Below, one piece after another: positions 5,554-6,614 of a stretch of 64,000 nucleotides of DNA. The translations under genes were made by a program, and so were the position numbers. The DNA is from a virus. The stretch is taken from IMG/VR virus record IMGVR_UViG_3300025137_000014, positions 62,001-126,000 of that record, one strand, 5' to 3'. The notes beneath the pieces were generated by a model. It had not been told where the DNA came from and did not search any database. It saw only the letters and a list, made by a program, of their open reading frames with translations. Positions within the stretch are counted from its first letter, which is position 1; each line of letters begins with the position of its first letter.

Positions 5554-6614
5554 TTATAATATCGGTGTGCCTGCTTTTTTACTCATTTCAAAATTCTGGT
5601 CGATAATATCATTCAGATGTTTGATATGGTTTACTGGCATTTCATGAAGTTCGGAGATAGAAACCCCACCTCTCATGTACCAAGATAATTGTAACAGATT
5701 TCTATGTACTTTGTCAAGTTCTTTTTCAAAGTTTTTTTGTTTTTTTGCAATTTCTTCACCGCTGGCGGTTGCTAGCCAGCTTAAGAAAAATTTGCAGGGT
5801 TAACTTCTATCTGAACAGTCTCTTTAGATTCGCATTCTGGGCAAACAAATTCAAAATTGTTTAACGATTCTGGCTTTTTAGCAATACCTTTAACTCTTTC
5901 ATCCATACTAGTAACTATTTTAGTAGGAACATTAGCAAGAAATTCTATAATTTGTTTCTTATCACTAACTTCACCTTCTGGTGTTTCTATCCTATCGATA
6001 GTTTCTGAGATTAAATCAACATTATATTCAGCTACACGTTTGAAACTTTTGTAAAACTTTTTTGCAAGTTCCAACTCATCCCTATCATTAGCTATGTCAT
6101 TTTTGACATTATTCATGATTCGCTGTTCTTCAAGCTGGATAAGAGCAACCCGTGTAACACTCTCAAGTGTTGGTGGTCTCATATGGATTGTTAAATTTTC
6201 GTATATTATAGGTTCAACCTGATTAATTTCAGGGAACTTGTTTAACACAAAATCGATATCAATATTGAAATCATTCTTATTTTCACACTTTTTGCATGTA
6301 TGTGTGTATGTAAGACTACTGCCGTTTGTAGCATATTGAATAGCCAAATAAAGTGCCTCTGCATCAATATTGCATAATTTTCTTGCATTTTTGATACTAG
6401 GTACACAACTTTCTATTAAAGAAATCATTGCTTCACCATTAAGAAGTGCATCTGGATTACGCATTGTAATCTCATCGATAGCAGTCATAGGCATAACGCC
6501 TACTTCTTCTAGTAAAGTTTGGTCAAATTCTGGGTTAAATTTACCTTTAGTTGGTAAACTAACATATAATGCTGGCTTTCTAAAGTATTTAGTTAGCGGG
6601 TTATCGGTCATCAT
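5554..6614 (-). CDS. gp26-gp51 frameshift fusion product
   Basis: If ribosomes slip -1 at 5793-5787, the 276 residues of the hub protein continue into a 77-residue extension that begins FLSWLATASGEEIAKK and carries LSWYMRGGVSISELHEMPV and a final KKAGTPIL. The extension is alpha-helical and resembles the short frames called gp51 (hub assembly catalyst) beside gp26 in marine T4-like phages, which end similarly (KSGxPF). It has no plausible start codon with a ribosome-binding site of its own, so frameshifting is the simplest way to express it. Fused long forms of tail-assembly chaperones are made this way in lambda (G/GT); equivalence here is inferred. Confidence 0.7.
5761..5793 (-). promoter_or_regulatory. 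Programmed -1 ribosomal frameshift signal in gp26
   Basis: On the minus strand the slippery heptamer A AAT TTT (5793-5787) is in the correct phase with the gp26 frame. The gp26 stop follows two codons later. A spacer of 6 bases leads to a perfect GC-rich hairpin, GCTGGC/GCCAGC (5780-5775 and 5766-5761) with an 8-base loop. Heptamer, spacing and hairpin are those of known -1 sites, and the -1 frame is open for 77 more codons to a stop at 5554. Confidence 0.8.
5781..6614 (-). CDS. 26: gp26-like baseplate hub / tail assembly protein (short form)
   Basis: A 277-residue protein with the layout of marine T4-like gp26 proteins: FRKPALYVSLPTKGKF near the N-terminus, PMTAIDEITMRNPDALLNGEA (residues 42-62), and two CxxC pairs (CKKC 107-110 and CPEC 258-261) that could form a zinc ribbon. 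T4 gp26 is needed to build the baseplate hub. The start is one of two adjacent ATGs after AAGGAATTA. It faces the tape-measure-like gene across a shared intergenic region. A -1 frameshift near its stop would make a longer form. Confidence 0.75.
   Translation of the reverse strand: MMTDNPLTKYFRKPALYVSLPTKGKFNPEFDQTLLEEVGVMPMTAIDEITMRNPDALLNGEAMISLIESCVPSIKNARKLCNIDAEALYLAIQYATNGSSLTYTHTCKKCENKNDFNIDIDFVLNKFPEINQVEPIIYENLTIHMRPPTLESVTRVALIQLEEQRIMNNVKNDIANDRDELELAKKFYKSFKRVAEYNVDLISETIDRIETPEGEVSDKKQIIEFLANVPTKIVTSMDERVKGIAKKPESLNNFEFVCPECESKETVQIEVNPANFS

Follow-up and report, generated by a model that had tools for sequence, protein, structure and literature searches.

A probable programmed −1 frameshift at the end of gp26 in a T4-like virus, and a probably altered slip site in its clade

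The gp26-type gene of an uncultivated marine T4-like virus very probably ends in a programmed −1 frameshift, and its product is in all likelihood a tail assembly chaperone made in a short and a frameshift-extended form, as in the lambda gpG/gpGT system. A first-pass annotation of the DNA had proposed the frameshift, and we found this reading supported because of the phase and position of the slippery heptamer, its conservation and the coding selection on the −1 frame. We infer slippage itself, its frequency and the chaperone role of the product from sequence.

The stretch of 64,000 nucleotides analyzed here (the window) belongs to a 187-kb uncultivated virus record with T4-like markers (Gp23 capsid, 7.9e-100; Portal_T4, 1.2e-109), and a single gp26 copy was found in that record. 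The gp26 zero frame (5781–6614, minus strand) encodes 277 amino acids, the putative short form (TAC-N). Divergent from it lies a 742-aa open reading frame (ORF; 6723–8951, plus strand), a candidate tape measure or structural protein, and beyond that the T4-type portal gene gp20 (9010–10710, plus strand; Portal_T4, 1.2e-109). The first-pass description of the neighbor as tape-measure-like proved less secure: the 742-aa ORF matched nothing in Pfam, and none of its PHROG matches fell below 0.05; several named relatives annotate the gp26 neighbor as a virion or structural protein, and in RaK2 a note calls it similar to tape measure protein. Elsewhere in the window, a 732-aa protein (17031–19229, plus strand) begins with a domain of the Mtd_N type (major tropism determinant; 7.3e-16) and is possibly a receptor-binding protein.

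The zero frame of gp26 ends with GCA AAT TTT TCT TAA, the stop codon lying at 5783–5781. Read directly from the minus strand, the slippery heptamer A AAU UUU (AAATTTT at 5793–5787; zero-frame codons Asn-Phe) is in phase with gp26, as it is in the clade relatives. The first-pass annotation had described this in-phase heptamer ahead of the stop, a perfect GC-rich hairpin six bases after it, and an open −1 stretch reaching 5554 that adds 77 residues and has no proper start; we confirmed each of these features, coordinates included. To place the heptamer among the other genes of the window, we took its 65 ORFs that begin with ATG and span 100 aa or more, and looked for X XXY YYZ in phase within the last 60 nt. 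Four ORFs combined such a heptamer with a −1 frame that continues unbroken across the stop. Of these four, a long −1 run was seen only in gp26, where it extends 75 codons beyond the stop, and in one other (66 codons). The latter (58635–59411, plus strand; 58740–59411 served as the control candidate) has an in-phase AAAAAAC, a 66-codon −1 extension and weak matches to C2H2-type zinc fingers. Its relatives comprised 48 loci, two of which had no stop and were dropped; the heptamer was kept in just 1 of the remaining 46 and is therefore probably due to chance, and we rejected this ORF as a frameshift gene.

The −1 frame at the gp26 locus (5554–5787, minus strand) is open to a TAA at 5556–5554 and would add 77 residues after the slip, the presumed C-terminal part of a long form (TAC-C). 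We compared ten representatives of the window clade, in which sequence pairs are not independent, and obtained a pN/pS of 0.28 for the −1 frame versus 1.1 and 1.5 for the other two frames of the same DNA downstream of the heptamer. The −1 frame also showed a third-position excess, and together these values point to purifying selection on it. The peptide was modeled with confidence as four helices (mean pLDDT 90.9), consistent with a small helical domain. In the window extension itself, Pfam matched nothing and the sole PHROG match was phrog_1193 at 0.053, and Pfam and PHROG scans of the 61 sequences in the extension alignment returned scattered matches and no usable family (the best PHROG match was phrog_8998 at 6.7e-5, in three rows; Gp41_Mu appeared in one row). 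Sequence searches of the PDB gave nothing credible, Foldseek matches in the PDB and BFVD all fell short of E 0.001, and VIA-align gave nothing above Z 4.3.

We then examined the junction in relatives. A tblastn search yielded 61 records of named phages, most of which are jumbo T4-like phages judging by record length, and 17 of them were picked for diversity (L011–L027); IMG/VR contributed nine close loci and the best 80 of 596 by profile. With the window, this made 107 loci, and the removal of L106, which had no stop, left 106 junctions. All 106 had an in-phase heptamer near the gp26 stop (T TTT TTC, T TTT TTT or A AAT TTT), and in all 106 the −1 frame was open for at least 116 nt past that stop, reaching the contig end in L061 and L053. 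A one-base gain would restore a single frame, as expected if an assembly error or the decay of a gene by an indel had broken one gene in two. However, the break falls at the same place in 106/106 junctions from many assemblies and isolates, and also in 78/79 cyanophage-like loci, the last being cut by a contig end; this conservation refutes such an explanation, to which we attach almost no probability.

The slippery codons themselves varied little. The last slippery codon pair at 94 distinct loci was TTT TTC (82 loci), AAT TTT (9) or TTT TTT (3). The second slippery Phe codon was TTC in 82 of the 85 loci with a six-T heptamer (T6 loci), compared with 28% of the Phe codons elsewhere in gp26, and the codon ahead of the slippery pair ended in T in 85/85, compared with 65% elsewhere. 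Both biases argue that the slippery codons are constrained in the relatives. They also bear on transcriptional rather than ribosomal slippage, in which RNA polymerase would slip on the T run and yield mixed products. RNA polymerase can slip on base runs, and the relatives do present six or seven consecutive T; however, the run in the window clade is only five T, which is short for this. Furthermore, the signal is codon-phased, with its T-ending codon ahead in 85/85, and 82/85 runs are closed by a C at base seven of the heptamer, which a polymerase would not require. We consider transcriptional slippage very improbable, and ribosomal frameshifting remains our reading of the junction.

Public annotations give a different picture of the region downstream of gp26. 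A separate small gene is annotated there in 15 of the 17 named records and always ends at the −1 frame stop, but its start is placed inconsistently; the other 2/17 records annotate nothing, and a frameshift is annotated in 0/17. The extension could thus be a separate gene (gp51) with its own start, or one translated by re-initiation after the gp26 stop. Within 60 nt of the stop, 14 of the 94 distinct loci have a start codon accompanied by a four-base Shine-Dalgarno match, a weak signal, and start and stop overlap in a few. Gp26's own start had a Shine-Dalgarno match in only 32 of the 94, so the test is weak in these phages generally. Against a separate gene, the window extension contains no ATG, GTG or TTG before an ATG at 5676, in the conserved middle of the domain; starting there would lose 38 residues of an extension that is common to relatives along its length. 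Moreover, conservation in the 61-sequence alignment begins at the heptamer, where FF is invariant, whereas the annotated starts vary from record to record, and the open frame is −1 in 106/106. A separate gene is therefore hard to credit in our view, and the small ORFs that records of these phages list downstream of gp26 probably do not constitute independent genes. The check proposed in the first-pass annotation, for a conserved heptamer and a downstream part without a proper start, thus came out in favor of frameshifting.

The presumed pausing stimulator is a hairpin, GCTGGC-(8-nt loop)-GCCAGC (5761–5780, minus strand), with six perfect pairs (5780–5775 with 5766–5761) and a 6-nt spacer from the heptamer. 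The fold of the heptamer and hairpin region in a 101-nt context gave a z of −4.29 and beat all 200 shuffles. In 10/10 clade representatives, the hairpin starts 13 nt (±1) from the first base of AAATTTT and the stem folds, with L029, L035 and L036 favoring a shifted register in single folds. Across nine distinct clade sequences, 98.1% of the cells of the window-register stem were paired, and we observed one compensatory pair, G-C to A-U. Because this signal was matched by 78/500 shuffles, we regard the hairpin as a plausible, not a proven, frameshift stimulator. Among the T6 loci, the 60 nt after the heptamer had a z below −2 in 28/85, whereas a control stretch upstream did so in 1/85. The corresponding numbers at the nine loci with AAATTTT alone were 4/9 versus 0/9, but there a control stretch further downstream was just as structured (mean z −2.1).

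The window clade (ten rows; SH-aLRT support 99) differs from other relatives at the slip site. The T6 heptamer is gone and A AAT TTT alone is left in seven distinct gp26 rows, and both are kept in three. L032–L034 read AAT TTT TTC and the window group reads AAT TTT TCC or TCT, so that a single T-to-C substitution separates them, or two in the case of the window and L002. At least three changes are needed on the clade tree, although with its starred branches there may have been only one. The overlapping A AAU UUU is already present in many relatives. On balance, we favor the view that U UUU UUC was lost by T-to-C change and that the slip now occurs on the overlapping A AAU UUU, one codon upstream. 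The predicted fused protein would read Asn-Phe-Phe (NFF) at the join with either heptamer, unchanged because the slip would fall one codon earlier. We infer both the direction of this change and the efficiency of the slip.

A single Phe-tRNA in the P site could instead slip on U UUU while the A site is empty, and would give the same product as tandem slippage on A AAU UUU, since both routes predict Asn-Phe-Phe-Leu. Consistent with a P-site slip, U UUU precedes a TCT or TCC codon and, in the closest relatives, a stop; in addition, the tandem route on A AAU UUU implies a third-position mismatch of Asn-tRNA on AAA. However, AAA ahead of the T run is invariant in 10/10 aligned clade sequences, and PMC4066793 places the best tetramers in E. 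coli, when combined with a strong stimulator, ∼10-fold below the best heptamer. We regard the P-site route as unlikely, though less so than the other alternatives, and retain tandem slippage as the preferred route. Both A AAU UUU and U UUU UUC belong to the class H_HH.U_UU.Y, which the same source places among the most efficient heptamers in E. coli (Sharma et al., 2014).

The change of slip site is local to this clade, and this part may be new. A literature search in which subscription coverage was thin, so that absence is not implied, returned nothing on frameshifting in jumbo-phage gp26 and no AAATTTT site for phage tail chaperones. If the change is as we propose, it would be a natural case in which a recoding site was replaced without a change of product, the hairpin staying in place, and the clade would provide a simple comparison, made by nature, with which to test the requirements of a functional −1 site in bacteria.

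The protein to which the extension would be joined belongs to the gp26 family. It matched Pfam T4_baseplate (PF12322) with 64.3 bits (curated cut-off 24.5) and PHROG_150, ‘baseplate hub’, at 1.5e-22, and all 72 members of the gp26-family alignment matched PF12322 at E 0.1 or better. By hhalign, the matches of our gp26 profile to T4 gp26 and T4 gp51 were weak (28% and 9%). The first-pass annotation had called gp26 a baseplate hub gene; we think the protein is best read as a tail assembly chaperone. The short-form model, also a confident one (pLDDT 86), had no Foldseek match in the PDB at E 0.001 or better. It aligned with the HK97 tail assembly chaperone 2ob9 over 102/107 residues (Z 6.8, rmsd 5.0), a likeness that is suggestive only, 2ob9 being rank 7 among the structure matches of the model and level with unrelated helical proteins.

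We propose that the hairpin, six bases further along, would hold up ribosomes on A AAU UUU and that a fraction of them would slip back by one base, with Asn- and Phe-tRNA, or Phe-tRNA alone, re-pairing during the slip. Slipped ribosomes would read UUC UUA AGC … and bypass the stop to make a 353-residue long form (TAC-NC) whose last 77 residues are the helical domain. If the lambda gpG/gpGT system is a guide, the tape measure protein would be coated by numerous copies of the short form and a small number of the long one, with tail tube subunits brought in by the added domain.

We asked how this locus relates to gp51, since the first-pass annotation had called the extension gp51-like. Among cyanophage-like IMG/VR loci (the best 80 of 600; L164, with no stop, was dropped), phased TTTTTTC was present in 79/79, and the −1 frame was open for at least 120 nt in 78/79, with L145 running out of sequence after 41 nt. 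In the cyanophages S-SSM7 and S-RIM8, what the records annotate as gp51 is gp26's −1 extension. The S-SSM7 extension matched phrog_634, ‘baseplate hub assembly catalyst’, at 1.6e-26, and residues 147–246 of T4 gp51 match the same family. In contrast, phrog_634 appeared in only one of the 61 window-type extensions (at 0.011) and not in the window's own, an HMM of the extension could not separate cyanophage extensions from shuffled ones (the best row was a shuffle), and hhalign between the window-type and cyanophage extensions gave a P of 0.024. The gp51 link of the window extension thus rests on position, frame, length and mechanism; by sequence it is too weak to support. Two other records depart from the pattern: S-SCSM1 (L111, 3678–3874) retains the phased TTTTTTC, yet its gp51 is annotated in frame +1, reflecting either a sequencing error or a real frame change, and in Microcystis phage Mel-JY01 (L113, ∼3745) a seven-T run near the gp26 stop is followed by a long open frame that is +1/−2 rather than −1, so this lineage possibly uses a +1 or −2 frameshift. 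Overall, the short/long tail chaperone scheme appears to span the jumbo-related and the cyanophage-like T4 relatives with near-total conservation.

Genes 26 and 51 of T4 are of the same PF12322 family as the window locus, and the fact that T4 gp26 and gp51 are both PF12322 (25% identical in alignment) helps to explain what the locus is. In T4, however, they are separate genes on opposite strands, and the end of gp26 has neither a slippery site nor such an extension. Vladimirov and colleagues reportedly meant genes 26 and 51 in their study, and its abstract is said to state that several groups of T4-like phages have retained frameshifting, whereas T4 relies on genes 26 and 51. The first-pass annotation had left it open whether the arrangement had been described for marine T4-like phages. 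The arrangement itself is not new in kind, because short and fused long genes in some T4-like phages have already been reported (Vladimirov, Gautam, Davidson, 2022, doi 10.1016/j.virol.2021.11.003, as cited in PRFect, PMC10885494, and Adele, PMC12846349); the slip site of the window clade is the part that may be new. As they are cited, those loci follow the same short/long logic as the window, and the TAC-N genes of T4-like phages are known to carry frameshift signals of the poly-T kind (PMC10885494, PMC12846349); the window clade differs in having lost the T6 heptamer and kept A AAT TTT alone. For the tail assembly chaperone locus of Vandenendeviridae and Andersonviridae, represented by phage Adele, PMC12846349 gives a −1 frame open in all genomes and a poly-T motif. 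The argument there is of the same kind as ours, with a GTTTTT motif and in other phage families. In lambda, a −1 frameshift near the end of the short chaperone gene adds a C-terminal domain to make gpGT from gpG (PMC5009743). The window resembles lambda, at the level of sequence, in having a short and a C-terminally extended form encoded at one locus. It differs in that its protein, which has cysteine pairs, belongs with T4-type gp26 and not with gpG, in that gp26 is divergent from the neighboring large gene, and in its slippery site, which is not that of lambda.
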